This document shows, one piece after another, positions 28,017-63,605 of a DNA stretch of 64,000 bases. Origin of the DNA: Arcicella rosea (GTDB lineage Bacteria; Bacteroidota; Bacteroidia; Cytophagales; Spirosomataceae). The DNA lies in NCBI RefSeq assembly GCF_014204325.1, contig NZ_JACHKT010000008.1, positions 1-64,000 on the forward strand. The letters run 5' to 3'. Below the pieces are notes generated by a model. It searched no databases, was not told where the DNA came from, and worked only from the letters and a program-made list of their open reading frames with translations. The stretch's first letter is position 1. Every line of letters starts with the position of its first letter. Both the position numbers and the translations under genes were made by a program.

Positions 28017-28435
28017 CCTACCTGCTTTAGTTTTTATGCTATACGAAAAAGTTTTTTTCGTATAGTGTTTACAATTTTTCCTATACACTTTAAAATTTTT
28101 CCTGTAGGAAATAATAATCGCTTATATGCTTTAAAGTTTTTCCTACAAGAAAAAGTCTATTACTTATACGCTTCAAAGTTTTTTCTACAAGAAAAAATTT
28201 ATCACTTATATGCTTCACAGTTTTTCCTATAAGAAAAAGTTCATCGCTTATATACTTTACAGTTTTTCCTATAAGAAAAAGTCTATCGCTTATATGCTTT
28301 ACAGTTTTTCCTATAAGAAAAAGTCTATCGCTTATATGCTTTACAGTTTTTCCTATAAGAAAAAGTCTATCGCTTATATGTTTTACAGTTTTTCCTATAA
28401 GAGAAAAAACTTCTTCTATTAGCGGGAAAATATTT
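28017..28435. repeat. 21-bp tandem array with 42-bp higher-order unit (array 1)
   Basis: About twenty 21-bp units run without spacers through the gap 27714-28657 (one unit at 28101 is 20 bp). From 28121 two types alternate: A begins CTTATATGCTTTACAG and ends TTTTT; B begins CCTATAAGAAAAAG and ends CTATCG. The central copies (28268-28372) are nearly identical and the edges diverge, as expected for arrays growing from the middle. Because 42 is a multiple of three, both strands stay open and give artificial 14-residue repeats. No spacers, so not CRISPR. The rest of the gap holds no recognisable gene. Confidence 0.9.
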
Positions 28436-28657
28436 CCGAACAAGGGCATTTTAGGGCAAGCATCTCAATTGCAAACCATTATTTTACCGTATAATAAATA
28501 AATCAGATAATTTGCTGAATTGTAGGTATTTGACTTGCTTTTGAATTATTTTTTTTATTAAATTCAAACATTAGAACAAGTACTACGCTCACTTACACCT
28601 TGTTTTAATATCTCAGTAGTTAGTCGATAGTTTAACACAAAAAAACCATCTATTACC

Positions 28658-29278
28658 ATGTCAGTAATTAGAATCATCATTAGCTTCACAAAATTAAGAG
28701 ATGACGATTTAGACACTAAAAGTCTTGTCATCATCAACAGCTTGACGGGAAATACCAATTTCCCAAATCCACAACCTTCTTTAGCAGAAATTGTAGCAAG
28801 CAGAAATGCTTATATCAATGCACTTTCAGCCAATGAAACAGGCGGAAAACAACAAACTTTAGTTAAAAACGAAGCCCGTAAGGATTTGGAAGCCAAACTA
28901 AGGTTATTAGGACTGTATGTGCAGGCAAACTGCAATAATAATGAAGTCATTGCCCAAGGTTCGGGTTTTGATATTCAGAAAAGTAGAGCACCTATAGGCA
29001 TTTTAGAAAGACCAAGCAATTTTAAAGTAGAGAATGGTCCAGCTTCTGGGACTTTGATTGCTAGTTCTGATAAAATAGATGGTGCAAAATCTTACGTTTA
29101 TCAAATAACGACAGCACCCGTGAGTAACACTAGCATTTGGCAGACGGAATTTGCCAGCACCAAAACACACATGTTTGTTGGGCTAACTCCGGGAACACAA
29201 TATGCTGTAAAAATGGCAGGAATTGGTGTCGAACCCATGTTGATATATTCAGATATACTCATGAGGTTTGTTTCATAG
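28658..29278 (+). CDS. Fibronectin type III domain protein of unknown role
   Basis: This 206-residue protein has no signal peptide. The first ~110 residues are helical (LAEIVASRNAYINALSANE, RKDLEAKLRLLGLYVQANCNNN). A fibronectin type III-like domain follows (about 117-205: LERPSNFKVENGP, GAKSYVYQITTAP, FVGLTPGTQYAVKMAGIG). Small proteins with this helical-plus-FN3 layout are common in Bacteroidota with no assigned function. A clear terminator follows, so it is a single-gene unit. Confidence 0.6.
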   Translation: MSVIRIIISFTKLRDDDLDTKSLVIINSLTGNTNFPNPQPSLAEIVASRNAYINALSANETGGKQQTLVKNEARKDLEAKLRLLGLYVQANCNNNEVIAQGSGFDIQKSRAPIGILERPSNFKVENGPASGTLIASSDKIDGAKSYVYQITTAPVSNTSIWQTEFASTKTHMFVGLTPGTQYAVKMAGIGVEPMLIYSDILMRFVS

Positions 29279-29306
29279 CAAAGGTGAGATATTAAAGCAG
29301 TAGTAC

Positions 29307-29340
29307 CAGCCCAAGCGAAAGTTTGGGCTGTGGTGTTTTT
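29307..29340 (+). terminator. Terminator of the FN3 gene
   Basis: A 10-bp stem (CAGCCCAAGC/GTTTGGGCTG) with a GAAA tetraloop is followed by TGGTGTTTTT. Confidence 0.85.
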
Positions 29341-29452
29341 GGGGAGAGAAAGGGAAAATGACATTCCATTTGATAAAAAATGAATGATGTAGTGGTAATG
29401 GTAAGATTGTTTTTTTACTTTTGATAAAATGTGACAATTGAAACAAAGATTA

Positions 29453-30382
29453 ATGAATAATAAAAAAGACCATATTGCAAAACCCTTTTTAAAATGGGCA
29501 GGGGGAAAAACTCAATTAATAAGTGAGATTAAAAAGTCGCTTCCTTATAATATTACTAAATCAAAATTCACATATATTGAACCTTTTGTTGGAAGTGGAG
29601 CGGTGTTATTTTGGATGCTTGACAACTTCCCAAACTTAAAACATGCAGTCATTAACGATATTAATGAAGATTTAATAAATAGCTATAAAATTATAGCATC
29701 AAAACCTCATGAACTTATTTCAACCTTACGAGTTCTTCAAAATGAATTTCATGATTTAGAAAGTAAGCCAGAGGATAAAAAGCTCTATTATTATCAAAGA
29801 AGAGAGATGTATAATAATAGAGAAGAAGAGAAAAGTGTTCAAGCGGCTCTATTTATCTTTTTGAATAGAACTTGTTTCAATGGATTATATAGAGTGAATA
29901 AAAACAATGGGTATAACGTACCAATGGGTAGTTATAAGAAACCTACAATTTGTGATGAGACAAACATTTTAGCCGTTAGTAATGCTTTACAAAGAGTAGA
30001 AATTCTTTGTGGTGACTATGAACAAACGTTAGAGCAAGCCAATACAAAATCTTTATTCTATTTTGATCCTCCATACAAACCCCTTAGTGAAACATCAAGC
30101 TTTAACTCATATTCTAAAGATGTTTTTAATGATGATGAACAAATTAGATTAAGAGACTTTTGCTCAAAATTAGATTCATTAGGACACAATTGGATACTCA
30201 GTAATTCAGATGTAAAAGGGAAAGATATTAATGATAATTTCTTTGATGATATTTATGCAAATTTTGCTATCACAAGAGTAAAAGCAAGAAGAAGTATTAA
30301 TGCTAATCCCGAAAAAAGAGGAGAGTTAAACGAACTATTAATTACAAATTATAAATATGAACAAGCTTTGCAACCTGCTTAA
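29453..30382 (+). CDS. DNA adenine methyltransferase, DpnM/MboA-like (GATC)
   Basis: This 309-residue N6-adenine methyltransferase belongs to the D12/Dam class. Motif I is PFLKWAGGKTQL, the catalytic motif IV is YFDPPYKPL, and NRTCFNGLYRVNKNNGYNVP is the Dam-class loop. It would methylate GATC and protect host DNA from the nuclease encoded next. The ATG at 29453 is preferred over an upstream in-frame TTG (29438). A lone TACTTTTG box at 29416-29423 lies upstream without a -33 partner. The 3' end overlaps the nuclease gene by 26 bp. The order methylase-nuclease-methylase recalls the MboI system. Confidence 0.9.
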   Translation: MNNKKDHIAKPFLKWAGGKTQLISEIKKSLPYNITKSKFTYIEPFVGSGAVLFWMLDNFPNLKHAVINDINEDLINSYKIIASKPHELISTLRVLQNEFHDLESKPEDKKLYYYQRREMYNNREEEKSVQAALFIFLNRTCFNGLYRVNKNNGYNVPMGSYKKPTICDETNILAVSNALQRVEILCGDYEQTLEQANTKSLFYFDPPYKPLSETSSFNSYSKDVFNDDEQIRLRDFCSKLDSLGHNWILSNSDVKGKDINDNFFDDIYANFAITRVKARRSINANPEKRGELNELLITNYKYEQALQPA

Positions 30383-31256
30383 TCTTAAAAATGAAGATGA
30401 ACTTTTTGATAAAATAAAACACTCTTTTAAAGAAAAAATCACTAAATGGGATTACTTTGTTAATTGGCTGAAGGTATTTAGCAACATCAAGCCTATTGAA
30501 AAAGAGCTAAACCTATTAAACTTCCTTATCGGTAAAGAAGATATTGAAAAAGAGGCATTCGATTTAATCAAACAATATCCAGAAGTAGTAAAAGCTTTTC
30601 CAACACTTATTGCTATTCGAGAAAAATCTGTAGATATTCTCATTGATACTAAAAAATTCATCTACAAAAACTATTCTTTTACTCGAAAGAAACTCACAGA
30701 TGAGGAATGTAAAGAGTTAGCCTATTTCGTTGTTAATTCTGGTATTGGTGAAATTCTAAGAGATAAAAAAGTAAAAAACTTAGTTGATTATGCTACTGGT
30801 ATAGAAGTTGGATTAGATAGTAACGGTAGAAAAAACAGAGGTGGTACATTAATGGAAAGCTTAGTTGAAGAGTTCGTTGCTGATACTTGTCAAAATCTTG
30901 GTTTACAATACTTAGCACAAGCGACCTCAAAAAAAATTAAACAGCATTGGGGATTAGATGTCATTGTGGATAAGTCATCCCGACAATTAGATTTTGCCAT
31001 TAATAAAAATGGAAAACTATTTTTTATTGAATGTAACTTTTATGGTGGTGGTGGTTCTAAATTAAAATCAACAGCTACTGAATATATTGAGATGAATCGT
31101 TACTGGAATAAACAAGGAATTGAATTTATTTGGATAACTGATGGTGCTGGATGGAAATCTACATTAAAACCATTGAGAGAATATTTTGATAAAGCGGATT
31201 ATTTGTTGAATTTAGAAATGTTAAAAAATAATATTCTAACTGAAATTTTAAAATAA
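30357..31256 (+). CDS. DpnII/MboI-family type II restriction endonuclease
   Basis: This 299-residue protein has the DpnII-family layout: a helical N-terminal half and a PD-(D/E)xK-like core with RQLDFAINKNGKLFFIECNFY, where the Asp and Glu would bind metal and the ENFY-type end is a family mark. KNRGGTLMESLVEEFV and WITDGAGWKSTLKPLRE are further DpnII-like blocks. It should cut unmethylated GATC. It overlaps the upstream methylase and is followed 4 bp later by an unknown gene. Confidence 0.85.
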   Translation: MNKLCNLLNLKNEDELFDKIKHSFKEKITKWDYFVNWLKVFSNIKPIEKELNLLNFLIGKEDIEKEAFDLIKQYPEVVKAFPTLIAIREKSVDILIDTKKFIYKNYSFTRKKLTDEECKELAYFVVNSGIGEILRDKKVKNLVDYATGIEVGLDSNGRKNRGGTLMESLVEEFVADTCQNLGLQYLAQATSKKIKQHWGLDVIVDKSSRQLDFAINKNGKLFFIECNFYGGGGSKLKSTATEYIEMNRYWNKQGIEFIWITDGAGWKSTLKPLREYFDKADYLLNLEMLKNNILTEILK

Positions 31257-31260
31257 AGCT

Positions 31261-31815
31261 ATGTCTATTTTACCTCACATGATAGTTAAAAAGGAAGAAC
31301 CTTTAGCAATTATTCAAGTAAACGACACATATATTCTTGGTATTTATCAAGGCTCATTATCACATTTTGATTTATTATTACGATACAGACAAAAAGACCC
31401 CAAAAGTAAATCTGGTTGGTCAAGAATAAGAACACCAAAGCATATTCATTGGGCTGTGGATGTAATTATAAAAATGCACTATAATGAGGAAGAGACAAAA
31501 ACATTTCTTTCTTTTCTCATTAACTTATGGGATACCCAAATAAGACCCTTAGCAACTGATGAAGACAGAAATATTCTTCTGAATGTTGAAGGTCTAATGA
31601 AAGAGGCGAATAATGAAGCTTCTAAATATCCTCAATTAGCGAATAAAGGGGAGTACAGTATTAAGTTTCTATACTTAATTGCTAAATTATTGATGGTACA
31701 AGAAAAGACCAATTTGTCGAGTGCTTTTATGTTTAAGTCGCTTTTGAAAGCCCTTGAAGCACATGAAGATATTTATAAAATTGTTTCTATTGCTACCCAT
31801 AATAGGAAAAGCTAA
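31261..31815 (+). CDS. Unknown protein inside the GATC restriction-modification operon
   Basis: This 184-residue protein is soluble with no signal peptide. An N-terminal beta-rich part (EEPLAIIQVNDTYILGIYQG) leads to SHFDLLLRYRQKDPK and a Trp-containing SGWSRIRTPKHIHWAVD, then mostly helices. I do not recognise a family. The gene begins 4 bp after the nuclease stop and ends in a TAATG overlap with the second methylase, so it is part of the operon by design. A helper of the nuclease, a controller or a DNA-binding factor are all possible; none is shown. Confidence 0.7.
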   Translation: MSILPHMIVKKEEPLAIIQVNDTYILGIYQGSLSHFDLLLRYRQKDPKSKSGWSRIRTPKHIHWAVDVIIKMHYNEEETKTFLSFLINLWDTQIRPLATDEDRNILLNVEGLMKEANNEASKYPQLANKGEYSIKFLYLIAKLLMVQEKTNLSSAFMFKSLLKALEAHEDIYKIVSIATHNRKS

Positions 31816-33104
31816 TGCTAAACACATATTTCAAATCCTCAGATAAAAACTTTTATCTCCTTCATGGTGATACAATGAAGCTTTTACCCGAATTTGAACA
31901 TAAGTTTGATATGGTTTTTGCAGATCCTCCATATTTTCTTTCTAATGATGGGCTTTCTATTCAAAGTGGAAAAATTGTGAGTGTTAATAAAGGTACTTGG
32001 GATAAATCACAGGGCTTTGACTATCTAAACGACTTCAATCGTCAATGGCTTTCATTAGTTCGAGATAAAATGAAAGATGATGCTACGATTTGGATTAGTG
32101 GGACTATGCACAATATATTTTCAGTAGGTCAGATACTCACAGAACTTGGTTTTAAAATTCTAAATGTAATTACTTGGGAAAAGACAAACCCTCCTCCTAA
32201 TTTTTCTTGTCGATATTTTACATATTCAACAGAACAAATCATTTGGGCAAGAAAAAATGAAAAGATTCCTCATTATTTCAATTATGAGTTAATGAAACAA
32301 TTGAATAATGACAAACAAATGAAAGACGTTTGGAAACTTCCTGCTATTGCACACTGGGAAAAAACTTGTGGAAAACATCCTACACAAAAACCTCTCTCAG
32401 TACTAACTCGATTAATTCTAGCTTCAACAAAACCAAATGCTTGGATACTTGACCCTTTTACAGGAAGTAGCACAACTGGAATTGCAGCAAACTTGGTAAA
32501 TAGAAGGTTCTTAGGAATTGACCAAGAAGAAACTTTTTTAAATATTAGTCAAAATAGAAAAATAGAAATAGAAAACCCTAAAATTGCAGAATTTTACAAA
32601 AATAAAATAGCAGATTTTATAAATACCAGAAGGCTGACGGAGTTTCTCGATAATGAAAAAGCAAACGAAACAATCAAAGTTGTACTTGGGTTTTGTCAAG
32701 CAAAAGAAATAAAAAAACTAAATTGTACTAATAAGTTTTATTTCCATGCTATTGAAAATAAAAATACTATAAGAGATTTTCCTATTAACTTGTTCGATGC
32801 AAAAAGGTTAATACTCTATTCAGGTGGAAGAAGTAAACCAATTAAATTGAATGGCTTTTACGGTGAAATTAGCTCAATAACATTAAAACATAAATCTGAC
32901 ATTGAGGGTAAAAGTAATTCTAAAACTGAGTTCTATTATGAAGTAACTTTAGCACAAAACTTTATAGAATCTATTGATTTAAAATTCACTTTAAATACTA
33001 AAAAATTATTTGAAAAAATAGATGACATAAATCTCAAATTATTTCAACAGTATTTACCTGCAATAACAACTTGGGAAAGAGTGATAGAGGCAAATATTCA
33101 ATAA
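31815..33104 (+). CDS. Second adenine methyltransferase, DpnA/MboC-like with C-terminal extension
   Basis: This 429-residue methyltransferase has FDMVFADPPYFLSNDG (motif IV), almost the DpnA signature, and PFTGSSTTGIAANLVNRRFLGID (motif I) further on, as in the beta-class order. DpnA-type enzymes methylate GATC also on single-stranded DNA, protecting incoming DNA. DpnA and MboC are about 270 residues, so the last ~160 (after about 265) are extra; they include GFCQAKEIKKL and LYSGGRSKPIKLNGFYGEIS and were not recognised. Its start overlaps the previous stop (TAATG). Confidence 0.85.
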   Translation: MLNTYFKSSDKNFYLLHGDTMKLLPEFEHKFDMVFADPPYFLSNDGLSIQSGKIVSVNKGTWDKSQGFDYLNDFNRQWLSLVRDKMKDDATIWISGTMHNIFSVGQILTELGFKILNVITWEKTNPPPNFSCRYFTYSTEQIIWARKNEKIPHYFNYELMKQLNNDKQMKDVWKLPAIAHWEKTCGKHPTQKPLSVLTRLILASTKPNAWILDPFTGSSTTGIAANLVNRRFLGIDQEETFLNISQNRKIEIENPKIAEFYKNKIADFINTRRLTEFLDNEKANETIKVVLGFCQAKEIKKLNCTNKFYFHAIENKNTIRDFPINLFDAKRLILYSGGRSKPIKLNGFYGEISSITLKHKSDIEGKSNSKTEFYYEVTLAQNFIESIDLKFTLNTKKLFEKIDDINLKLFQQYLPAITTWERVIEANIQ

Positions 33105-33136
33105 TATTAAATATTGTAATTTCTCATTCTGTTCAT

Positions 33137-33406
33137 ATGCTAAGTTTAACCGAGAAAATATCCTACTTAGAAAACTATTTGAATAGTATTCAAGATAATT
33201 ATGCTGATAGTTTTAAAACTGACATACTCTTTTTCTTTGATGAATTGAACGAGAGCAATCAACATTTAACATTCCTAAACAAATTAGAAAGCTTTGTTGA
33301 AATTGAGGATTGGGTTGATAGATTAACATCAAGAATCGTCTTGAAATTTGATGAAGAAACCGAACAATTAAATGATTTGATTAATTATTTTATACAGATA
33401 GGTTAA
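33137..33406 (+). CDS. Small acidic protein of unknown function
   Basis: An 89-residue helical acidic protein (LENYLNSIQDNYADSF, FDEETEQLNDLINYF) starts 32 bp after the second methylase. The frame is open upstream from 33071 via TTG, but the ATG at 33137 avoids overlap with the methylase. No family was recognised. Position suggests it may belong to the restriction-modification operon. A small acidic helical protein could be a regulator or inhibitor; this is a guess. Confidence 0.5.
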   Translation: MLSLTEKISYLENYLNSIQDNYADSFKTDILFFFDELNESNQHLTFLNKLESFVEIEDWVDRLTSRIVLKFDEETEQLNDLINYFIQIG

Positions 33407-33444
33407 TTTGATTAGAAAATTCATCAACACAATCCTTATTCGCT

Positions 33445-33726
33445 ATGATACAACTACAAGCTCCTGCTTTTACATTCAATATTTTTCCACATCAGGAAAA
33501 ACTTAGATTAGTTGTTTTTACTAACGACGAAGAATATGTCTGTAGAATTGAAAGTAAGAAAAAGTTGCATCATTTTCTGGAAGAGTATGATACAAGGCTA
33601 TTTAAAGGAAGACTTCAATTAATCAAAAATCAGGATGATATTGCTATTCAAGTAAAGGGAAAAATAGTAGGGGAATTAAGCATTGATGTTTTCACAGAAT
33701 TATTGAATGTTCAGAGTACTCTATAA
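33445..33726 (+). CDS. Small conserved-looking protein of unknown function
   Basis: This 93-residue soluble protein reads as two beta-rich halves around a helix (APAFTFNIFPHQEKLRLVVF, KKKLHHFLEEYDTRLF, LIKNQDDIAIQVKGKIVGEL). No family was recognised. Its last 16 bases overlap the end of the convergent NRDE-family gene. Coding is supported by the regular strand/helix pattern and by tight packing. Confidence 0.55.
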   Translation: MIQLQAPAFTFNIFPHQEKLRLVVFTNDEEYVCRIESKKKLHHFLEEYDTRLFKGRLQLIKNQDDIAIQVKGKIVGELSIDVFTELLNVQSTL

Positions 33727-34424
33727 CGCAATGCTTGTTCGGAAAGTAAATCATGAAAAGAAAATGATAAATAATGATTTTGTTTCACTACCTGAAAAAC
33801 GCATTGTGTCACCAATTCATTATTTCGGTTTACTCGCATATCATTATGATTATCTCCAGTTCCTCCGTTCAAATGAAAATTAAGTAAATCTTCAGCACTA
33901 CATGCTGGAAATTGTTCCTGAAAAGTAGTAAACCATTGCTCTCTTTGATGCCTAATTTCATCACTATACAAAGTAGCCGACGACCAAATATGTGGCAAAA
34001 GACTATCTTTCTCGGCACGATATAATACTTCACCATCCCAACGAATCTCAGTTAAATTTACTTCATCATTAACATTTTGAATAATAATCAATGTAAAGTT
34101 TTCAATTCCTTCAAAATTGTAGGCTTCTAAAAAAGTATCGAGCGCATCGTATTGAAAGAAATCAAGGATGATTTGTCCCCTGCTTTGTCGATACGGAGGA
34201 TTAGATTGATGTTTTTCAAAAGCACCATTTAATAAACACAATGTAAAATCATCAGAAGTAGCCAACCAAGTACCTCCCGCTTGTGCGTCTTTCGGAAAGT
34301 ACACTTGTTTCCCATTTAATATGTATTTCTTGGGTGGAATGGCTTTTGGACGAGCAAGGGTTTCATCTCGATTATTCGTCAAAAAGAAACCGTTTTGCTT
34401 GGGTAAATAAGTAAGTACGCACAT
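33711..34424 (-). CDS. NRDE family (TANGO2-like) protein
   Basis: This 237-residue protein starts MCVLTYLPKQNGFFLTNNRDE, matching the family start in which Cys2 directly follows the initiator Met and NRDE closes the first block. GGTWLATSDDFTLCLLNGAF and SRGQIILDFF are further family features. An ATG 14 codons upstream exists but would bury the conserved N-terminal Cys. TANGO2-like proteins have an Ntn-hydrolase-like fold; haem handling has been proposed for some members. The bacterial role is not settled. Confidence 0.85.
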   Translation of the reverse strand: MCVLTYLPKQNGFFLTNNRDETLARPKAIPPKKYILNGKQVYFPKDAQAGGTWLATSDDFTLCLLNGAFEKHQSNPPYRQSRGQIILDFFQYDALDTFLEAYNFEGIENFTLIIIQNVNDEVNLTEIRWDGEVLYRAEKDSLLPHIWSSATLYSDEIRHQREQWFTTFQEQFPACSAEDLLNFHLNGGTGDNHNDMRVNRNNELVTQCVFQVVKQNHYLSFSFHDLLSEQALRYRVL

Positions 34425-34576
34425 TATATTAAGAGTGATGAATTGTGAATTATGAATGATGAGCAACCCGACACTACGAATTAAAACATTGAAATACCTT
34501 TATTTAATTCGAAAAGTACCCTCCCTTATTTTCCATCGACTACTCATAATGGTGATAAAGGTCTTTAAAATTATGT

Positions 34577-35077
34577 TCAGGCATTCTGCATGTTGCGGTG
34601 CTTGATGGTGGAATGAGCTACACCAAAATCTGGAGCAATCTGGATTTCAGGATATACTTCATTCAAACCAATTTTGATAATTGCCAAATGGTGAATGGTA
34701 TGTTCTATCAAATAAGTAAGTTCACGGAAAAAACTACTAGGGATGGATATTGCGTCCTCTAAACCAAAAGCTGTTTGTAATATTAATTGTTTATCGTTTT
34801 GATAAAAGTTCAAGCGACTTTTTACAGCTGTTATCACTTCCAATGCAAAAGTTTTATCTACTTCAATCCTCAGATTTCGTTCACGAGCATCATAATTTAC
34901 TTCGCCTGTTTCATAACCTTTCAATAAACATTGATAAAACTCTGTGATGTGCCTAACATGTTGCCCTACCGAATGATAGTGTAAAGGTGCTAGGCTTTCT
35001 TTATACACTACATCTTCTAAATCTTCCAGCAAATACCTTAGCTGTTCGATAATTTCAATGTTAATTTTCTGAAGCAT
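34577..35077 (-). CDS. DinB-like (four-helix, metal-binding) protein
   Basis: This 166-residue all-helical protein has His residues placed as in the DinB/YfiT superfamily: LHYHSVGQHVRHITEFYQ early and EHTIHHLAIIKIG late, which together make a three-His metal site. Family members include thiol-dependent transferases, and others are of unknown function. No regulatory site was seen. It is a lone gene on the minus strand between the NRDE gene and the YceI group. Confidence 0.75.
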   Translation of the reverse strand: MLQKINIEIIEQLRYLLEDLEDVVYKESLAPLHYHSVGQHVRHITEFYQCLLKGYETGEVNYDARERNLRIEVDKTFALEVITAVKSRLNFYQNDKQLILQTAFGLEDAISIPSSFFRELTYLIEHTIHHLAIIKIGLNEVYPEIQIAPDFGVAHSTIKHRNMQNA

Positions 35078-35158
35078 ATTTTATATATTTTCTGAATTGA
35101 TTTCTTGAACGTTAAGCTTGAGCGTTTGAGGGGTTTTATTTTATTTCACAACTCAAAA

Positions 35159-35692: not shown

Positions 35693-35697
35693 ACTAT

Positions 35698-36429: not shown

Positions 36430-36462
36430 TTTGCTTCAATTTAAGTGTTTCATTAAAAGATT

Positions 36463-36891: not shown

Positions 36892-37067
36892 TGCTTTTGT
36901 TTTTTGATTACGCTACAAATTTGAAAATCTTTATACAATCACATTGTCGGCTAGGTGACTGAAAACAGAAAACAATATTTTTTTTTAGGAAAGAAATCCT
37001 TAATCGAATGGAATTGATTGTAACTGACGCAGAAAATTAAAAGAAAAGGATACACCAAATTTAATTC

Positions 37068-37102: not shown

Positions 37103-37220
37103 ATGTAAATAGCGAAGTAAAGAGGGCTTTTCTAACTATTTGTAAGGATTTCCTTATTAAATTCACAACAAAATATCCCTTACAAATTAAGACTGCTTAA
37201 AATATCCCCCAATACAATTC

Positions 37221-38384: not shown

Positions 38385-38409
38385 AGAGCTTTTAGTTATC
38401 AAATTTCGG

Positions 38410-44983: not shown

Positions 44984-45109
44984 CATCTCTTACATGAGAT
45001 AGAACAACATTCCGAAGACTTCAAATATCTCGTCGATGACACAAAACATCTCATCCGAGACATATTTTGTCTCTCGCATCAGATAAAATATGTCTCAGAA
45101 ATCCCTTTT
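44984..45109. repeat. Degenerate 21-bp tandem array (array 2)
   Basis: Six consecutive 21-bp units fill the spacer after the ATP-grasp gene. A common pattern is CATCTC or TATCTC at the start, GAGA or GATGA in the middle and AAA or TTT at the end. Units are much more diverged than in arrays 1 and 3 and share no sequence with them. No unit boundary shifts over 126 bp. Confidence 0.7.
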
Positions 45110-55189: not shown

Positions 55190-55190
55190 A

Positions 55191-55238
55191 AATAATACCC
55201 AAAGTCAACATGAATAATTGTTGGCTTTGGGTATTATT
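55191..55238. terminator. Bidirectional terminator between convergent genes
   Basis: A 20-bp stem begins AATAATACCCAAAGTCAACA and its complement has one mismatch; the loop is TGAATAAT. T-rich sequence follows best on the minus strand, so it serves the PorE-like gene as well as the cytochrome gene. Confidence 0.8.
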
Positions 55239-55259
55239 TCAAGGGTAAAATCAATAAAA

Positions 55260-57509
55260 TTACTTCACCGATAAAATCTTAAACTCTGTTCTTCTGTTTT
55301 CTTGATGCTGTTCTTCGCTACAAGAAACGCCATCTACACATTCGTTAATTGGCTCAGTTTCGCCATAGCCTCTAGCCATTAATCTACTCGTATCTATCCC
55401 ATTTTCAACTAAAAAATCTACTACAGCTTTAGCTCTTTTTTGTGATAATTCTAAGTTGTAACTCGCACTTGAACGTGAATCTGTATGCGAACGAATCTCA
55501 ACTTTCATACTTGGATATTTTTGTAAAATTGGCAAAATCGTCATTGCTAATTCATGAGCAGCATCTGTTCGAATGAAGAATTTATCTCTATCATAATAAA
55601 TATTTTTAAGTCTAATCACATCTCCTTTTGCGTACATTTTCTGTACATTCGGAAGTGGAGAAGCACTTTTAATTACTTCATTATTGGTAGCATAATCGTC
55701 CTTTTCAGCGATTAATTTATTTTCTGTATCAGGCTTTACTGCAAATTCATAGCCACCATCTTCTCCTGTAATTACGGTTTGTCTGGTTTTATCTTTCTGG
55801 TTTTCTAAGGTTACTTGTACGCCTGCAATCGGTTTTTGATTTACTTCAGACTTCACTATTCCTTTCAAAACAGAAGTATTCGATTTTTCAAGATAAATAG
55901 CTAAAGTTGTATTTTGAGCCGTATTACTCCTAGTAGAAAAAGTAATTGCATTCATCAAATAGCCTTCTTTAATGGCTTTAAATTCATATTCAGAAAGTGA
56001 TTGTAAACAGATTGACATCAAACCTTCTGAATTGGTCATTTTCAATTCTTGATTCTCTCCGTTGATTACACTTCTAATGTCCACATCTGCCAAAGGCAAT
56101 TTGGTCAAAGCATCATAAACGACGATATTGAGTGGATGACATTCTTTTTTGAAACTATAAATATTATCGTCATGAATTCCCTTTTTTCGGTTAGAAGAGA
56201 AGTAACCTGAGTTTCTACCTCCATCTGTAATCAGTCCGAAATCGTCTTTTTCAGAGTTCAAAGGTGCGCCAACATTCACAACATTTTCACTGAATTTTCC
56301 ATCTTTGTATTCGGCAAAGAAAATATCCAAACCGCCTAAACCTTCATGACCATCTGAGGCAAAGTATAAATTATCGTTTTCATCCACAAATGGAAACATT
56401 TCATTGCCTTCGGTATTGATTTCTCTGCCCACATTCACAGGTTTTCCCCACTTACCATTATTGTATTCAACAACATAAATATCAGTTCCGCCAAAACCTC
56501 CTGGCATATCCGAGACGAAGTACATTTTTGTATTATCTGCATTTAAAGCAGGATGCCCACACGAAAATTCGTCATTATTAAAGGGTAATTCTTTTACTTC
56601 ACTCCAGCTTTCCTTGTTCAAATTAGCTGAATATAATTTCAAGCGATTTGTACCATCTTTTGATTCTCTGGCTCTGCCTTTGTTGTAATTATTTCGGGAA
56701 AAAATGATTTTCTTGCCATCTTTGAAAAAACTTACTGGCCCTTCGTGATACTTTGTGTTTAGAATTCTACTAAAATCCTCAATCTTGGATAAAGGCGATT
56801 CCTGCACAAGTATTTCATTATTACTTGCAGACATTCCACCCAAAGCTGCAGCAGATTGTAAACCCATTTTGGAAGATAAAAGAGCAGTATCTGGAACAAA
56901 ATACAGATTCAAAAATGGTGTTTGATTCCAACCAAAAACACGTTTGATAATTCCTGCTTCATCACGAGCAGAGGAAAAAACCAAACCGCCATTGTAGTAC
57001 ATCGGGCTAAAATCTGCTTGACGAGAATTAATAGATAAGTATTCTACTTTGTAAGAAGATGAATCACGGTAGAAGTGACTCATATCCATGTACGAAATTG
57101 TAAATCGTTTACCTCTTAAATCGGCTTTTTGTTTTTCTCCGTACAAAGAGTAATATTTTTGCGACTCACGATATTTTTGATTGGAAGCCAATGCCTGAGC
57201 ATAATACAAATATTGCTCACTTTCAACATCAGGAAAATCTTTGATTAAATTTGAAAATACTCTTTCTGCATTACGAGTATCCTGTATTTTTCGGTAGGAA
57301 AAAGCTAGTTTTTTTAAGACTTCTAGTTTGACTTTGGGGTCTTTATTTTCTTTTAAAAAATCCTCATATTGTCGAATGGCTTCCAGATAACTCAGTTTTT
57401 CAAACTGATAATTAGCCGCTTTAAGTTTAGTTTGAGCATACAAATTCCCAAATGTGAAAATAAAAAACACAAATAAAAGCAAACGTATTTTAGGGATTTG
57501 GTTGTTCAT
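55260..57509 (-). CDS. PorE-like OmpA-family protein (TPR, PD40 propeller, CarboxypepD-like, OmpA)
   Basis: This 749-residue protein has a signal peptide (ends NLYAQ). The domains in order are TPR-like helices (about 30-130, EAIRQYEDFLKENK, QDTRNAERVFSN), a PD40/WD40-like propeller (about 170-440, MYFVSDMPGGFGGTDIYVVE, LYFASDGHEGLGGLDIFFAE), carboxypeptidase-regulatory-like beta domains (about 455-610), and an OmpA peptidoglycan-binding domain (about 635-749, VEIRSHTDSRSSASYNLELS, ENRRTEFKIL). This is the PorE architecture. PorE is an OmpA-type T9SS component that links the machinery to peptidoglycan. It is a single gene. Confidence 0.8.
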   Translation of the reverse strand: MNNQIPKIRLLLFVFFIFTFGNLYAQTKLKAANYQFEKLSYLEAIRQYEDFLKENKDPKVKLEVLKKLAFSYRKIQDTRNAERVFSNLIKDFPDVESEQYLYYAQALASNQKYRESQKYYSLYGEKQKADLRGKRFTISYMDMSHFYRDSSSYKVEYLSINSRQADFSPMYYNGGLVFSSARDEAGIIKRVFGWNQTPFLNLYFVPDTALLSSKMGLQSAAALGGMSASNNEILVQESPLSKIEDFSRILNTKYHEGPVSFFKDGKKIIFSRNNYNKGRARESKDGTNRLKLYSANLNKESWSEVKELPFNNDEFSCGHPALNADNTKMYFVSDMPGGFGGTDIYVVEYNNGKWGKPVNVGREINTEGNEMFPFVDENDNLYFASDGHEGLGGLDIFFAEYKDGKFSENVVNVGAPLNSEKDDFGLITDGGRNSGYFSSNRKKGIHDDNIYSFKKECHPLNIVVYDALTKLPLADVDIRSVINGENQELKMTNSEGLMSICLQSLSEYEFKAIKEGYLMNAITFSTRSNTAQNTTLAIYLEKSNTSVLKGIVKSEVNQKPIAGVQVTLENQKDKTRQTVITGEDGGYEFAVKPDTENKLIAEKDDYATNNEVIKSASPLPNVQKMYAKGDVIRLKNIYYDRDKFFIRTDAAHELAMTILPILQKYPSMKVEIRSHTDSRSSASYNLELSQKRAKAVVDFLVENGIDTSRLMARGYGETEPINECVDGVSCSEEQHQENRRTEFKILSVK

Positions 57510-57636
57510 TACTTCAAAGTAAACATTGTCTGTTGAATATATTAGTCGATTTTGTCTATGTAATATTCACCGCAGAAAAGACAAATAGCGTGCCAAAACT
57601 AATACAAGATTTTTAGCTTTTCAGCTTAAAGTCAAT

Positions 57637-57670
57637 AAAAAAGGTTTAGACTTCCATCCAAACCTTTTTT
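57637..57670 (-). terminator. Terminator of the SnoaL/GH105 unit
   Basis: A stem AAAAAAGGTTT/AAACCTTTTTT around AGACTTCCATCC follows the 142-aa gene by 24 bp, with a T tract on the minus strand. Confidence 0.85.
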
Positions 57671-57694
57671 TAACAGTAAAACTTATTTTATGGA

Positions 57695-58123
57695 TTAAAT
57701 CTTCACCGCTTGACGAGCGATTAATTTCCAATCATTTTTTGTTTTTTGAAATACCAATAAAATCCCAAGTTTCACAGTTCCAGCAACACCACGATTGTTA
57801 GTTTCTGCATATAATTTATGACGAACAATAGCAGTTTTTCCAAATACTTTAATGGTTTGTTCTGTCAAATCCATCGTTTTAAAGTCTGAGTCTCCATTCA
57901 TCAACGTTTCGATTAAATGGGCTTTTCCTTCTAAACTTCCGCCTGAATGCCCGTAGCTCAAGTCTTCATCAAGTATTTTCTCTAAAGTAGCTTTGTCAGC
58001 ATCAACCACAGCTTTTCTGAAAGTTTCTACCGCAGCAGCAACTTTAGCATCTTCGTCAGATTGTGCTTGACTAAGCCCAACAGTTCCCAATAAAATGGTA
58101 CTCAACATCAATAATGTTTTCAT
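57695..58123 (-). CDS. Secreted nuclear-transport-factor-2-like protein
   Basis: This 142-residue protein has a signal peptide (ends LSQAQSD). An NTF2/SnoaL-like cone fold follows (AAVETFRKAVVDADKATLEKILDEDLSYGHSGG, KTAIVRHKLYAETNN, VFQKTKNDWKLIARQAVKI). Such proteins bind small molecules, and some are enzymes. The gene begins 18 bp after the GH105 gene, so it is cotranscribed with it and may assist glycan breakdown. Confidence 0.75.
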   Translation of the reverse strand: MKTLLMLSTILLGTVGLSQAQSDEDAKVAAAVETFRKAVVDADKATLEKILDEDLSYGHSGGSLEGKAHLIETLMNGDSDFKTMDLTEQTIKVFGKTAIVRHKLYAETNNRGVAGTVKLGILLVFQKTKNDWKLIARQAVKI

Positions 58124-58141
58124 TAGTTCAAGGTTTATAAA

Positions 58142-60097
58142 TTACTTTTTTATACTATCTTTTTTTAATAACCAAACGGCCAAGTTTTTTGCCGCTTTGA
58201 AGTTCTCAAACTCCATTGGTAAACGTTTTCCGTTTAAGTATTCATTGTAAATCCAAGGGTCTCCGATGGCAAAAACAGTTCCTTTACCAACTTTAGCAAC
58301 CGCCATAATATTATCATTTCCTTCGGTTACAACAGCTTTTGCAGGTGCTTTTACCGATAAAACTGATAGCTCTTTCACAAATACTTTGCTAACATCTTTA
58401 AAAATACTGTGATCCGCAGGAATCGTTACTTTGCCTTGTTCATACACATTATTTTTCACCATGTTAATACTCTTTCCAGTAAACTGAATACCAAATCTAG
58501 CGGCTAATTTATTGAAATGAGGTAATTCTACATTGGCAGAATCGTTTGCCATTAATACTAAATTTCCACCAGCTTTTACCCAATTTTCAATGGCTGCAAT
58601 GTCTTGTGCATCTACAAAATTAGGATTTGGTGTTTCTTTTTTAGTATCTGGGTCAACGATGATATATACATCCAAACCTTTCAAAGTATTGGCTCTTGGT
58701 GCAGTTGAAACTGTTTTTAATTCAGCACCATAGTTTTCAAAAATACTTCCTAATAACGAGAATCCAGAGTCTTTTCCATCATACCAAGTATAGTGATAAG
58801 GTTCTGTGATACCTTCACGAGTAGTACGCATCTCGTGATTGAAGTAATTATCTAAACCTACTTTTTTACCTTTTCCAACCGCTAAATCATCAGCAATTTC
58901 CATTTCAACACTTGCCATGATAAATGGAGCCATTCCTTTTAAATCATCACGACGAATTGGTTCTTTCAAGTAATATTCATAACTACCATCACGGTACGGG
59001 TTTCCGCCCAAACCACTTACTAACACTACTTTTTCTAAGTGATTGATTCCGTTACTTTCTGTTGAAATAAAGTTTCTTAAAATTCCATCATATCCTTTTT
59101 TGGCATTCAAAGAGTATGATTTATCGATATAACCCATTCTAACACCTTTTGCCAAACCATAAACCATCATTGAAGAACCCGAAGCTTCTAAATAATTACC
59201 TTTGCCATTCAGTTTATCCACAACTTGATACCAACAACCTTCTTTAGGGTCTTGGAATTTCACAATTGCAGCAACCAATCTTTGATAAATTCCTATTAAT
59301 TCATTGCGTTTTGGATGCTCTTTCGGAAAAGTATCCAACACATCAGCTAAGGCCATGATGTACCAACCGATTGATCTTCCCCAGAAATTTGGCGAGCGAC
59401 CAGTAGTTTTATCTGCCCATTTTTGTTCACGGCTTTCGTCGTATCCATGATAGAGTAAACCCGTTTTTGGATCACGGGCATTTCTCTCCATCCAAATAAA
59501 TTGGTTAGCTATATCATCAAAATTCTGAGGCTGATTAAAGGCTGCACTGTACTCAGCATAGAAAGGTTCTACCATATACAAACCATCTAACCACATTTGG
59601 TTTGGATAAATTTGTTTATGCCAGAAACCACCTTCTTTAGTACGAGGTTGTTCCGAAATTTGTTTTCTTAATAAATCTGCCGCCAATTTGAATTTTTCTT
59701 TGCCAGACTCACGGTAAAGCATTACCAAAGAACGTCCACCCGTAATATTATCAGAATTAAAATTATCGTATTTATAAGTTTTGATTTCGCCTTTATCGTT
59801 TACATAAGAATCCATATTGTTTAAAATGAAACGATAATATTTAGCATCACCAGTACGATACCATACTCTTTCAATGGCTTTTAAAATGATGGCTTGTTCA
59901 TAATCCCAACGAGCACGTTTTCCTTCTTCTTTATAAGTGATAGAATCTTTATGAACATCTAGCATAATATCCGCCATCCTTTCCGACCACTTCATTTGTG
60001 CCAAAGAAGTATTCGATAGAAAGAAAAGACAAATCCCAGCAAGAATTACAAAGTACTTGCTAAAAATTGGAAGGGTAAAAAAAGGTTTTCTTTGCAT
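58142..60097 (-). CDS. GH88/GH105-family unsaturated glucuronyl or galacturonyl hydrolase
   Basis: This 651-residue protein has a signal peptide (ends TSLAQMK). An (alpha/alpha)6-barrel (about 30-390) has GH105-type blocks (WDYEQAIILKAIERVWYR, DNITGGRSLVMLY, PNQMWLDGLYMVEPFYAEY, GRSPNFWGRSIGWYIMAL, LEASGSSMMVYGLAKG). The last ~220 residues form a separate domain that resembles DUF4350/ThuA-type flavodoxin-like folds (LDVYIIVDPDTKKE, WVKAGGNLVLMAND). Family members cleave unsaturated uronic acid residues left by lyases acting on pectin or ulvan. Confidence 0.85.
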   Translation of the reverse strand: MQRKPFFTLPIFSKYFVILAGICLFFLSNTSLAQMKWSERMADIMLDVHKDSITYKEEGKRARWDYEQAIILKAIERVWYRTGDAKYYRFILNNMDSYVNDKGEIKTYKYDNFNSDNITGGRSLVMLYRESGKEKFKLAADLLRKQISEQPRTKEGGFWHKQIYPNQMWLDGLYMVEPFYAEYSAAFNQPQNFDDIANQFIWMERNARDPKTGLLYHGYDESREQKWADKTTGRSPNFWGRSIGWYIMALADVLDTFPKEHPKRNELIGIYQRLVAAIVKFQDPKEGCWYQVVDKLNGKGNYLEASGSSMMVYGLAKGVRMGYIDKSYSLNAKKGYDGILRNFISTESNGINHLEKVVLVSGLGGNPYRDGSYEYYLKEPIRRDDLKGMAPFIMASVEMEIADDLAVGKGKKVGLDNYFNHEMRTTREGITEPYHYTWYDGKDSGFSLLGSIFENYGAELKTVSTAPRANTLKGLDVYIIVDPDTKKETPNPNFVDAQDIAAIENWVKAGGNLVLMANDSANVELPHFNKLAARFGIQFTGKSINMVKNNVYEQGKVTIPADHSIFKDVSKVFVKELSVLSVKAPAKAVVTEGNDNIMAVAKVGKGTVFAIGDPWIYNEYLNGKRLPMEFENFKAAKNLAVWLLKKDSIKK

Positions 60098-60201
60098 TTT
60101 TTATTAAATAATTATGTTTGAGGAACGCTACTGAATTTTGAGTTAATACTGTACGAAGGATTAAATATATGTTCAAAATGTTTTTTAACTAATAATTTGC
60201 G

Positions 60202-60260
60202 GTAGCGGCACCCCTTGCGGTTGCCGTTTCATTCGAGGCAACTGCAAGAGTTGCCACTAC
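60202..60260. repeat. Inverted pair of GTAG-headed REP-like elements (REPIN/BIME-like)
   Basis: Left arm GTAGCGGCACCCCTTGC... (60202-60225) and right arm (60237-60260, ending CACTAC) are inverted copies, identical at 20 of 24 positions, joined by an 11-base loop GTTTCATTCGA. The left arm nearly repeats 43786-43815. The rest of the 326-bp spacer 60098-60423 shows no gene. Confidence 0.7.
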
Positions 60261-60423
60261 ATTTTATTTGAGATAAACAACAAAACATTTTGGTCTATTA
60301 AAACAGTTTTGTTCAGTAATCAGTCAAACGACAAAATTAAAATGAGTAATTAATTGATTTATAAATTATTAACCGCTAAACCACTCATTCACTAAATCAC
60401 CATTCGTCCAATTCCTCCATTAC

Positions 60424-61704
60424 TTAAATTTCAACTTGTTCGTTCTTTGGTGCGAAAAAGTGCATAATAGCCCACGCTAAAATATAAGCACTTCCACAAA
60501 GTAAAAAGATAATATTATAACCTGAATTAATATCGCCAACGGCTTTATAAGAATCAAGTAACGAACCTACAATAATCGGGAAAATCATTCCTCCTACTGA
60601 ACCCGCCATTCCACCAATACCAATCACTGAACTAATTGCTTTTTTAGGAAACATATCCGAAGCCACCGTGTAAATATTGGCACTCCAAGCCTGATGTGCT
60701 GCTGCCGCAATACTGATTAATGCGACGGCTTCCCAAATATTTGTTGCATAACGAGCAGCCATAATTGGCACCACACAAAGAGCAAAAATAAACATTGATA
60801 CTTTTCTAGCTTTCGGAATTGCCCAGCCTTTTTTGATAAAGTAACCAGATAAATACCCGCCGCCAATACTTCCGATAGTTGTTGCTGTATAAACCAAAAT
60901 CAAAGGCAAACTTGGTTTTTTCAAATCCAGATTAAAGGTTGTTGAAAAATACGAAGGCAACCAGAACAAGAAAAACCACCAAATTGGGTCAGTCAACATT
61001 TTTCCAAATACAAAAGCGTAGGTTTGTCTGATTCCAAAAAGTTTCAACCAAGCTACAGGCTTTTCATTGGCATTTACTTGTTCGGCATCACTATGAATAT
61101 ACTCATATTCTGCCTTTTCTAATTTCTTGTGTTTCGATGGAATTTCATAATAAATAATCCAGAAAACCAACCAAACAAAGCCTATTCCACCAGTAATGAC
61201 AAAAGCCATTTCCCAACCATAAGCACCCAAAATCCAAGGCACCATGATGGGTGCAACTACTGCACCAATGTTAGCACCAGAATTAAAAATTCCTGTTGCT
61301 AAAGCCCTTTCTTTTTTAGGAAACCATTCAGCTGTTGCTTTGATTGCCGCTGGAAAGTTTCCTGCTTCACCCAAACCCAAGGCAGCTCTTGCTAAACCAA
61401 AACCAAAAGTACTTTTGGCAAAAGCATGTGCAATGGCTGCGATACTCCACATAATTACCGAAATAGTATAGCCTAATTTTGTACCAATTTTATCAATAAT
61501 CCCACCAAAAACCATCAAACTAAGTGCATAAGCCGCCTGAAAGGCAATTACTATTCTGCTATAATCAGTTTCTGTCCAACTAAATTGTTTTTCTAAAGTT
61601 GGTTTCAAAAGACCAATCACTTGTCGGTCTAAATAATTGATGGTAGTAGCAAAAAAGAGTAGAGCCACTATTTGCCAACGGTATTTACCAATCGTCTTGT
61701 TCAT
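60424..61704 (-). CDS. MFS transporter, ExuT-like hexuronate permease
   Basis: This 426-residue protein has twelve membrane helices and follows the ExuT/anion:cation symporter pattern: INYLDRQVIGLLKPTLEKQF, RAALGLGEAGNFPAAIKATAEWFPKKERA, TGIFNSGANIGAVVAPIMVP and ASDMFPKKAISSVIGIGGMAG. ExuT imports galacturonate and glucuronate with protons. It lies beside GH105, which releases unsaturated uronates, and opposite a LacI regulator. Confidence 0.85.
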   Translation of the reverse strand: MNKTIGKYRWQIVALLFFATTINYLDRQVIGLLKPTLEKQFSWTETDYSRIVIAFQAAYALSLMVFGGIIDKIGTKLGYTISVIMWSIAAIAHAFAKSTFGFGLARAALGLGEAGNFPAAIKATAEWFPKKERALATGIFNSGANIGAVVAPIMVPWILGAYGWEMAFVITGGIGFVWLVFWIIYYEIPSKHKKLEKAEYEYIHSDAEQVNANEKPVAWLKLFGIRQTYAFVFGKMLTDPIWWFFLFWLPSYFSTTFNLDLKKPSLPLILVYTATTIGSIGGGYLSGYFIKKGWAIPKARKVSMFIFALCVVPIMAARYATNIWEAVALISIAAAAHQAWSANIYTVASDMFPKKAISSVIGIGGMAGSVGGMIFPIIVGSLLDSYKAVGDINSGYNIIFLLCGSAYILAWAIMHFFAPKNEQVEI

Positions 61705-62050
61705 GTTTTTGGGATTAGACTGTAAAAACTTTGATTAACATGCACTGTTTCATCTGAAAAAGGACATTAATCATGCTTTCCATTAAAGAGAAAAACACTT
61801 TACTTTTACTTGATTTCAAAAAAATGATTCTCAACGTATAAGTAACTTTAGGCTATTTTTACCTTATGGTATCAGATAGATTTTTGAAAAAATTATCCTC
61901 AAAAAACAAATTCGAGAAAATAGATAACTAGATTATTTCAAGAATTAGCATTTTATATTATTTCTTGCTAAGTATAAAGGCTTAGTTAAACATATCTCTT
62001 AAAGTAGAAGGATACAAACATTTTATTGAATATTTTTCCCAAATCTTTTC

Positions 62051-62062
62051 GGGAACGTTGCC
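62051..62062. promoter_or_regulatory. Candidate LacI-family operator
   Basis: GGGAACGTTGCC is a near-palindrome centred on AACGTT, like many LacI/GalR-family operators. It lies in the 485-bp divergent spacer (61705-62189) between the ExuT-like and LacI genes, so it could control both. No second half-site was recognised, and the rest of the spacer shows no gene or RNA. Confidence 0.3.
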
Positions 62063-62189
62063 ATTAATGTAAATTTATATTTAGTTGATAAGAAGCCATT
62101 GCTTTTTACCAACAAGATTTAAGTAAAAACAGAAAAGTAGCAGCAGAAAAAGGGAAGAAAAAATTTGTACAATTCAAAGAAACAGCATT

Positions 62190-63221
62190 TTGGAACATAT
62201 AACAATTAAAGATATTGCCAAAGCCTTAAATCTCTCGACTTCAACCGTTTCGAGAGCATTAAGAGGAAGTCATGAAATTAATCCTGAGACTAAACGTTTG
62301 GTGATGGAGTATGCCGAAAAATTCAATTATCAACCCAACCCAATTGCATTAAGTTTAAAGGAAAATAAAAGTAGGTCTATTGGTGTAATCGTTCCTGAAA
62401 TTGATAATCCATTTTTCTCGCAAGCCATTAACGGCATTGAAGACATTGCTTATAACAAAGGTTATCAAGTAGTTATCTTCCAAAGTCATGAATCTTATGA
62501 ACGAGAAGTAATTAATACACAGCATATTACTTCAAGACGTGTGGATGGTTTATTGATTTCGCTTTCAGGACAAACGACCAATGTTGAACACCTAAAAAAC
62601 TTGCATGACAAAGGATTGCCCATTGTGCTATTCGACCGTATTTCAGATGAAATAGATACCCATAAAGTGATTTCTGATAATTTTGAAGGTTCGTTTAATG
62701 GAACAGAACATCTAATTAAAACAGGAAGAAAAAGGATTGCACATATTGCTGCGTCGCCTTATTTATCTATCACAAAAGAAAGAGTAAAAGGGTACTTGGC
62801 AGCTTTAGAGAAGTATAATATTCCTGTAGATGAATCTTTGTTGAAATATTGTAATTATGGTTTACAAGATATTGAATTTGTGATAGACCAACTTTTCTCC
62901 AACGAAACGCCTCCTGATGCCATTTTTACCGCAAGTGATAGATTGGCTTTGGGTTGTTTAAGTACATTACAAAAAAGGAGTATCAAAATTCCAGAAGATA
63001 TAGCATTGATAGGTTTTACTAATTTAAAAGTAGCGTCCCTTTTAGCACCATCGCTCAGTACCATTGTACAACCCGCTTTGGATATGGGCAAACGTTCAGC
63101 AGCATTATTATTTGATTTAATTGAGAATACTTCAAAACTGCCTAAAAGCTATCAAACTTTTAAATTATATACAGAATTGATTGTTCGAAATTCATCTGTG
63201 GTGAAGCGTGGTGAGGACTAA
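62190..63221 (+). CDS. LacI-family transcriptional regulator
   Basis: This 343-residue regulator has the LacI helix-turn-helix at the N-terminus (TIKDIAKALNLSTSTVSRAL) with the hinge helix region NPIALSLKENKSRSIGVIVP. A periplasmic-binding-like sensor domain follows (about 62-335: DNPFFSQAINGIEDIAYNKG, RRVDGLLISLSG, PDAIFTASDRLALG). The sugar or uronate inducer is unknown but is presumably a product of the neighbouring glycan genes. The TTG start is needed to keep the DNA-binding helix. Confidence 0.9.
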   Translation: MEHITIKDIAKALNLSTSTVSRALRGSHEINPETKRLVMEYAEKFNYQPNPIALSLKENKSRSIGVIVPEIDNPFFSQAINGIEDIAYNKGYQVVIFQSHESYEREVINTQHITSRRVDGLLISLSGQTTNVEHLKNLHDKGLPIVLFDRISDEIDTHKVISDNFEGSFNGTEHLIKTGRKRIAHIAASPYLSITKERVKGYLAALEKYNIPVDESLLKYCNYGLQDIEFVIDQLFSNETPPDAIFTASDRLALGCLSTLQKRSIKIPEDIALIGFTNLKVASLLAPSLSTIVQPALDMGKRSAALLFDLIENTSKLPKSYQTFKLYTELIVRNSSVVKRGED

Positions 63222-63269
63222 AACATTTAGTTTTAACCCAAAATACTGTCAAGCTTTTTTAGGATGTGA

Positions 63270-63605
63270 CAAGATGGCAATTACATCAAACAAGATGACA
63301 ATTGCATCGAACAAGATACTAATTCTATGAAACAAGATGACCATTTCATCAAACAAGATGCTCGTTCAATGAAACAAGATGACCATTACATCAAACAATA
63401 TGCTCATTCAATGAAACAAGATGACCATTACATCAAACAATATGCTCATTCAATGAAACAAGATGACCATTACATCAAACAATATGCTCGTTCAATGAAA
63501 CAAGATGACAATTGCATCAAACAAGATGCTCGTTCAATGAAACAAGATGGCTATTACATTAAACAAGATGCCCGTTCAATGAAACAAGTTGACCATTACA
63601 TCGAA
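63270..63605. repeat. 21-bp tandem array with 42-bp higher-order unit (array 3)
   Basis: Sixteen 21-bp units run without spacers. All begin CAAGATG or a one-base variant and end ATnAAA or close. Two types alternate from 63333: A has ACCATTACATC in the middle, B has CTCATTCAATG. A 103-residue frame (63327-63638) reads through as 14-residue repeats, but the twelve base differences I tallied against the A/B consensus fall at codon positions 1, 2 and 3 as 4, 6 and 2. This argues against selection on a protein. No spacers. Confidence 0.9.

Follow-up and report, generated by a model that had tools for sequence, protein, structure and literature searches.

In the system of the RAYT (REP-associated tyrosine transposase) gene and the REP/BIME repeats (repetitive extragenic palindromes and bacterial interspersed mosaic elements), a chromosomal gene lies beside its own short repeats, which are also dispersed in the genome. 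Iterons and partition sites (Rep iterons, ParR-parC, TubR-tubC) likewise combine a gene with adjoining direct repeats whose spacing is close to one or two turns of DNA, and the repeat and the protein diverge together. The subject here is a set of tandem arrays of 21-bp units, three of which (A1, A2 and A3) are located in a 64,000-nucleotide stretch from Arcicella rosea (contig NZ_JACHKT010000008.1, positions 1 to 64,000; hereafter the window). The piece missing from the first reading of this stretch is an associated protein family, which is found outside the window: an undescribed family of helical proteins is almost certainly linked to arrays of period 21.

Comparison with the RAYT-REP system reveals the same juxtaposition of a gene with its own repeats and the same recurrence of these repeats elsewhere in the genome. 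The differences are that PF01797 (Y1_Tnp) is not among the matches listed for the array-linked proteins (25 of the 30 families), and that the repeats form long tandem arrays with a near-constant unit of 21 bp, mostly non-palindromic (the exceptions are 2 of 17). With iterons and partition sites, these loci share helically phased direct repeats by the gene (27 of 30 and 9 of 12 loci in the two sets described below), which the protein would presumably bind. Unlike in those systems, eight members with different arrays coexist in one genome (G000, the Arcicella-like genome that carries the window arrays), no Rep or partition match is seen among the members tried, and the fold has no match in the structure libraries searched.

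Two other kinds of repeats are relevant. In the part of the TAACTGA report considered here (MacGregor 2015, PMC4679880), TAACTGA and related heptamers are described as intergenic direct repeats in some Bacteroidota spacers, with a 7-bp unit of one sequence that in the main host mostly occurs just before start codons. The present arrays are intergenic direct repeats, too, but with 21-bp units of many sequences and no positive signal at lags 7 and 14. Borg tandem repeats, as presented in the portion of PMC9879509 used here, have varied unit lengths and near-perfect copies, 43-65% of them within genes; they resemble the present case in comprising many fast-evolving arrays of differing sequence per genome, in spacers as well, but that portion describes neither a single period nor a linked protein family. 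In the open-licence literature searched, no account of 21-bp Bacteroidota arrays, or of this protein next to arrays, was recognised. Since neither the protein family nor such an array turned up in the libraries and the open-licence literature searched, the family and an array that is conserved in period only and accompanied by its own protein appear to be new, although an iteron-like or RAYT-REP-like reading could prove right.

The protein family was recognised from two arrays of the same sequence family (F2; array families are numbered F1 to F13), at G000:C54 and at G076:C23 in a genome of another genus, which have a homologous left flank that is the end of a gene. The product of the G000:C54 gene consists of 244 amino acids, and the members of the family are basic, helical proteins of about 235-250 amino acids. 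In the first 11 genomes, there are eight members in G000 (including G000:C54), two in G076 (one of these a 61-residue fragment) and none in the nine others, and a period-42 array adjoins all ten G000 and G076 loci returned. Of 390 genomes drawn from the order, 14 contain members according to profile searches; the corresponding counts are 10 of 395 for the phylum and 38 of 395 for the class, the three draws overlapping.

The isoelectric points of 21 aligned members range from 8.3 to 10.1. An AlphaFold2 model (nine members) is nearly all helical, with two short strands in a low-confidence loop (mean predicted local distance difference test score 87.4, predicted template modelling score 0.72). 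The two halves of the protein, about 100 residues each, are homologous to each other (hhalign probability 98.5, E-value 2.3e-15), and each contains a Y-x-P motif and a conserved arginine. Scans of the members tried against NCBIfam, PHROGs, PADLOC and Pfam return weak matches only; e.g., the commonest Pfam match among 21 members, PF19775 (DUF6261), is weak and occurs in 3 of the 21, with a best E-value of 0.0022 in a table without a cut-off. A weak PDB sequence match to a phage coat protein (E-value 0.0024) was discounted, the predicted structure being almost entirely helical.

Linkage was scored for full-length members as the presence, within the locus (up to 1.5 kb on each side), of a 21-class array with a score of at least 40 in a lag scan (match +1, mismatch -0.77), where the 21-class comprises periods 20-22, 41-44 and 62-66, and periods 21, 42 and 63 are called exact. 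Such an array is present at 27 of the 30 scored member loci, compared with 3 of 27 control loci around LacI, Y1_Tnp and helicase relatives (Fisher p 9e-10); the three positive controls are one heptamer-like array and two longer repeats. The background frequency in tiles is 4 of 188 in other genomes and 25 of 298 in G000. Outside the discovery genomes G000 and G076, linkage is found at 18 of 21 loci. Twelve further members, chosen by rule and taken with 500-bp flanks, have an array with a score of at least 40 in nine cases, all nine with a period of exactly 21, 42 or 63. The loci span 32% to 51% G+C with a near-exact period of 21, and at 16 of the 19 positive loci outside G000 the array period is an exact multiple of 21. 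Fragments and weak matches were excluded from scoring (G076:C23; G128:C23 and C27; G280:C5 and C30; G014, two pieces of one site; G197; G235; G573:C4 and C23; G584; G696:C9); arrays are nevertheless found at G076:C23, G128:C23, G280:C30, G014 and G584, the others being without one.

Two side observations concern these loci. At four loci of one taxonomic family, the array-linked gene has a neighbour of one type (DUF4230 in the single copy that was scanned; L215:2223-2933, with relatives in G280 and G325). The 1720-base stretches from G860 and G1042 (L260 and L261), which are placed in different families, have 2 differences, and this near-identity suggests contamination or very recent transfer.

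The arrays change along with the proteins. Across 22 gene-linked loci, the similarity of two arrays, compared in the orientation of the gene, rises with the identity of their proteins (rho 0.30, 0 of 3000 permutations); rho is 0.17 (p 0.01) for the other strand and 0.005 and 0.02 for reversed and complemented controls; two G291 members (76% identity) and two at G000:C4 (69%) are examples. In three genera of one taxonomic family, the gene neighbours polynucleotide phosphorylase, and the array occupies the interval between them; period and place are kept while the units have diverged. Gene-linked arrays also have counterparts without a gene. In G000, the gene-linked F1, F2, F5, F8 and F12 arrays resemble arrays lacking the gene, the F4 array of G000 has a match in the array at the G076:C51 gene, and the G128 array by a gene fragment matches another G128 array. 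In each of these seven orphan comparisons (six within a genome and one, F4, between genomes), the score exceeds all 200 column shuffles.

We tentatively propose, giving it slightly less than an even chance, that these loci are a two-part system in which the gene for a helical, two-half protein is accompanied by an array of 21-bp units that the protein binds. The protein would bind its own array as duplex DNA, with one pseudo-dimeric molecule covering two helical turns and each unit presenting the same face; the idea of one protein per unit comes from the combination of a fused pseudo-dimer with a two-turn repeat. One protein per two turns would keep the period fixed at 21 as the protein and the unit sequence evolve together. 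Local gain and loss of units, through slippage or unequal exchange, would proceed in steps of 21, 42 or 63 and produce A/B dimers; orphan arrays, including A1, A2 and A3, may be scattered sites of these proteins or remnants left by lost genes. The proposed binding is the simplest account. In the cell, the system may serve chromosome organisation or gene regulation, or may spread selfishly. A wider generalisation is possible, though less likely than not: throughout the phylum, a pseudo-dimeric helical protein would read and maintain its own two-turn repeat, the period alone being fixed and the protein and repeat sequences co-evolving fast, so that each paralogue would own private arrays, one at its gene and the others serving as chromosomal addresses. 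A non-coding element that is kept in period and not in sequence evades ordinary homology search, and the protein family provides a handle to find such arrays. If binding is confirmed, these loci would form a naturally occurring set of co-evolved protein-DNA pairs that carry a helical ruler within them, and the birth, phasing and spread of repeat arrays become testable.

Several observations weigh against the binding model. Co-divergence fits co-evolution and also the plain co-inheritance of gene and array. A Foldseek search with the model against PDB and a viral library gives no match at E-values up to 0.001, and no DNA-binding family was accepted among the matches listed for the members tried. 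Three of the 30 scored members are without an array (G310, with a sub-threshold 42-bp trace 3' of the gene, G696 and G752), and three of the twelve further ones have no clear array (a near-identical pair, differing at 2 of 1720 bases, shows a weak 63-bp trace, and the third lacks an array altogether). Three of the gene-linked arrays outside G000 have periods of 43-44, i.e., units of about 22 bp. The array lies 3' of the gene at 10 of 22 loci (within 170 bp in all of them) and 5' at 12, so there is no fixed operator position. Among the sampled G000 arrays, a family gene is touched only by those in L032, L033, L076 and L178, most of the others being orphans, and a partner gene of this protein family was not found for F3, F6, F7, F9, F10, F11 and F13; the F13 array and one F3 array lie near IS200-type transposase genes instead. 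Finally, the search for a conserved core of about 10 bp in the unit gave no significant result (2 of 32 arrays at p < 0.05; Fisher p 0.085).

Among the alternatives, a selfish system akin to RAYT-REP, in which the protein or an IS200-type transposase helps to copy or spread the cognate array and a host role is absent, is unlikely, though the most probable of them. It would account for gene-less copies of gene-linked families within one genome (F1, F2, F5, F8 and F12 in G000, one family in G128), for the IS200-type transposase genes near the F13 array (31 bp) and an F3 array (about 360 bp) and for the patchy distribution of members over the genome draws given above. What speaks against it is that no nuclease, transposase or recombinase family was accepted among the matches listed for members, that plasmid and phage records (one member each) and viral contigs (one member) yield no match, and that the place beside polynucleotide phosphorylase is kept in three genera, which suggests vertical upkeep. 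We regard as improbable a neutral satellite that arises in spacers through slippage and unequal exchange, the replication or repair machinery favouring 21 bp and a partner protein being absent. The A/B dimers and 63-bp trimers with divergent edges do look, by eye, like a product of unequal exchange, and insertion sequences occur in or at arrays, as in insertion-tolerant DNA; the gene-array linkage nevertheless disfavours this explanation, which accounts neither for 27 of 30 against 3 of 27 loci, nor for a near-exact period of 21 over 32%-51% G+C, nor for upkeep at an orthologous site.

Two further alternatives concern the form in which the arrays act. That transcribed repeats fold or bind the helical protein as RNA has the same low probability as the neutral satellite: the ten 3' arrays start within 170 bp of the gene and orientation to the gene matters for similarity, but 12 of 22 loci have a 5' array, and the folding energy of 26 arrays equals that of column-permuted ones (mean z +0.13 sense and +0.33 antisense, with two sense values below -2). 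It is very improbable that the arrays encode heptad-repeat peptides (21 bp being seven codons). Open frames do run through A1 and A3, that through A1 having a whole-protein GerE match with no passing stretch, and one or more stop-free frames exist in roughly half of 17 arrays, as chance often gives with short periodic units; however, substitutions show no codon phase in 16 of 17 arrays (one at p < 0.05), and the 23 strongest arrays of G000 include only one other multiple of 3 (period 51), where frame-keeping alone would permit many. The arrays are judged non-coding because codon phase is missing; the open reading frame (ORF) map, which dropped ORFs with more than 30% of their length inside an array, is not the basis of this judgement. 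In the proposed protein-array system, duplex DNA is the likelier form because there is neither an RNA-fold excess nor, in 16 of 17 arrays, codon phase.

Period 21 dominates the strongest tandem repeats of G000, which was sampled as the window and 60 further stretches (1,257,367 bases). Among 84 segments with scores of at least 24, 40 are 21-class and 33 exact; at scores of at least 100, 22 of 23 are 21-class and 20 exact, the other two 21-class ones having a period of 41. Nine of these 23 arrays are in stretches chosen for an earlier match and two in the window; the remaining 12, from unselected stretches, comprise 11 of the 21-class (nine exact, two of period 41) and one of period 51. The same lag scan finds zero repeat segments in Markov-random versions of twelve sequences (284 kb). 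Thus, the broad spread of periods that the original prediction named as its refutation did not appear in this genome. Samples from two genomes of the same genus have mainly periods of 7, 8, 14 and 15 bp, so that period 21 is no general property of spacers. The spacers around 20 arrays are convergent in 6 cases, tandem in 9, divergent in 4 and undetermined in one.

The arrays of the window and the features tied to them are as follows.

28014 to 28439, strand not applicable: array A1, family F6, period 42 consisting of two related 21-bp units, about 10 copies
44984 to 45108, strand not applicable: array A2, degenerate F7 member, about six 21-bp units
63260 to 63607, strand not applicable: array A3, orphan F1 member, period 42 consisting of two related 21-bp units
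28090 to 28449, minus strand: ORF through A1, judged spurious (no codon-phase signal, p 0.81)
63327 to 63638, plus strand: ORF through A3, judged spurious (no codon-phase signal, p 0.61; no Pfam match)
63246 to 63271, minus strand: solo terminal inverted repeat of an insertion sequence, at the edge of A3

As originally reported, all three arrays have a 21-bp period, and two of them, A1 and A3, an A/B super-unit of 42 bp. The period is strong in A1 (identity 0.78 at lag 42 and 0.43 at lag 21; Tandem Repeats Finder score 456) and in A3 (0.90 and 0.70; score 490). It is weak in A2, whose lag-21 identity of 0.47 is attained by 1.15% of 2000 Markov sequences at one or another of the lags 8 to 60; but A2 aligns to family F7 (score 42 against a maximum of 16 among 200 column-shuffled controls). 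The left end of A1 is more divergent than the remainder; its spacer lies between divergent genes, a PorP/SprF-type gene on the left and a 206-aa ORF on the right, and its relatives in G000 are at C33 (78% over 328 bp) and C1 (72% over 106 bp). A2 is flanked by a gene with a sub-threshold ATP-grasp match and a DEAD-box helicase gene, and A3 by a LacI-type regulator gene and a minus-strand ORF. F1, the family of A3, has six more loci in G000, including a copy at G000:C4 that is 126 bp from a gene of the protein family. Because this F1 partner gene sits elsewhere and none was found for F6 and F7, the window arrays are orphans, with no array-linked family gene beside them.

The three arrays are indeed unlike each other, as had been claimed, but they are not isolated: they belong to the dispersed families F6, F7 and F1, so that part of the shared period is due to common descent. 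To that extent the idea of convergence on period and not on sequence has to be qualified; it is borne out by the many consensus sequences in G000 and by the retention of 21 bp beside one protein family across distant genera. The A/T runs at unit ends do not hold as a rule, since strong/weak-base autocorrelation at lags 10-11 is absent in ten families. The ORF across A1 has a whole-protein match to GerE (E-value 1.5e-11), which speaks against calling it spurious; no single stretch passes, and the match is taken as the sum of repeated weak matches. The nearest named relatives found are Arcicella (58-66% identity in the PorP protein) and Flectobacillus (55%). A D12-class adenine DNA methyltransferase gene (window 29438-30382) is located 1 kb from A1.

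Profile comparison groups the arrays of the sample into seven families with more than one member (F1, F2, F3, F5, F7, F8 and F12) and several singletons. In the test of how the families are related, 35 of 253 pairs are above the 99% point of the null; 16 of these are within families, 11 involve L087, a pure 21-bp array that inflates pair scores, and the remaining 8 link other arrays across families. With single linkage at the 99.8% point, 14 of 23 arrays (F1, F2, F4, F5, F8 and F12) fall into one group. Given this merger and the weak cross-family similarity, common descent of several families appears possible.

By eye, the array centres are uniform dimers or trimers and the edge copies are the most divergent, a pattern that slippage or unequal exchange would produce if each step were one higher-order unit. 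The layout of clustered regularly interspaced short palindromic repeats (CRISPR), i.e., near-identical repeats with unique spacers, is not seen, the arrays being contiguous degenerate units (cas genes were not searched for). A palindromic unit does not exceed shuffles at p < 0.05 in 15 of 17 arrays, and the two exceptions both belong to F3. One hairpin per unit, persuasive by eye in F1, F3 and F4, was rejected on the basis of this dyad shuffle test and the lack of an RNA-fold excess. A heptamer origin was likewise rejected, there being no positive lag-7 signal (pooled autocorrelation -0.017 at lag 7 and -0.019 at lag 14). In the pooled arrays, purine autocorrelation is clearly negative near one helical turn; tests on single families give little (3 of ten at p < 0.05; combined Fisher p 0.006). 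A purine-pyrimidine wave of period 21 is suggestive.

In our reading, which includes a presumed pairing of contig ends, one type of insertion sequence occurs in or at arrays in 5 of 7 independent places. Its sites are:

window 63246-63271; G000:C2, C5, C9, C11, C19, C27, C34, C40 and C55: insertion-sequence sites

Full copies are found inside the F4 and F5 arrays and solo ends beside F1, F2 and F12 arrays. A full copy contains an integrase-core ORF, and we take the element to be of the IS3 type. The end motif had been considered as an array leader, a possibility that was rejected because the motif ends an element with integrase-core domains. The F13 array (L167:14258-15227, G000:C34) lies 31 bp from an IS200-type (Y1_Tnp) transposase gene, and an F3 array (L129, G000:C22:41387-42333) about 360 bp from another; the F3 units are palindromic and REP-like, and these two arrays may be of the REP type. 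In addition, dispersed REP-like palindromes of the GTAGCACGGGTTTCCAACCCGT type flank several arrays (L033:10331-10507 and 15614-15754; L010; L012).

Among 121 genomes of the taxonomic family, F2 arrays have matches in two, G000 and G076, and F3 arrays in five, three of the five matches being short. The G076 stretches chosen for F2 and F3 matches have periods of 42 and 63; in eight unchosen stretches of this genome, the 21-class segments (periods 41, 22 and 22) are heptamer-like. The period-21 arrays show that spacer repeats in Bacteroidota are not all heptamer microsatellites. In the two genomes of the same genus (G005 and G007, 200 kb each) with mainly 7, 8, 14 and 15-bp arrays, the 21-class accounts for 1 of 18 segments (period 63) and 2 of 22 (periods 21 and 42), the 21-bp one being heptamer-like. 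The long heptamer-type arrays of these two genomes (L044-L063; 7, 14 and 15 bp) include some that are TAACTGA-like.

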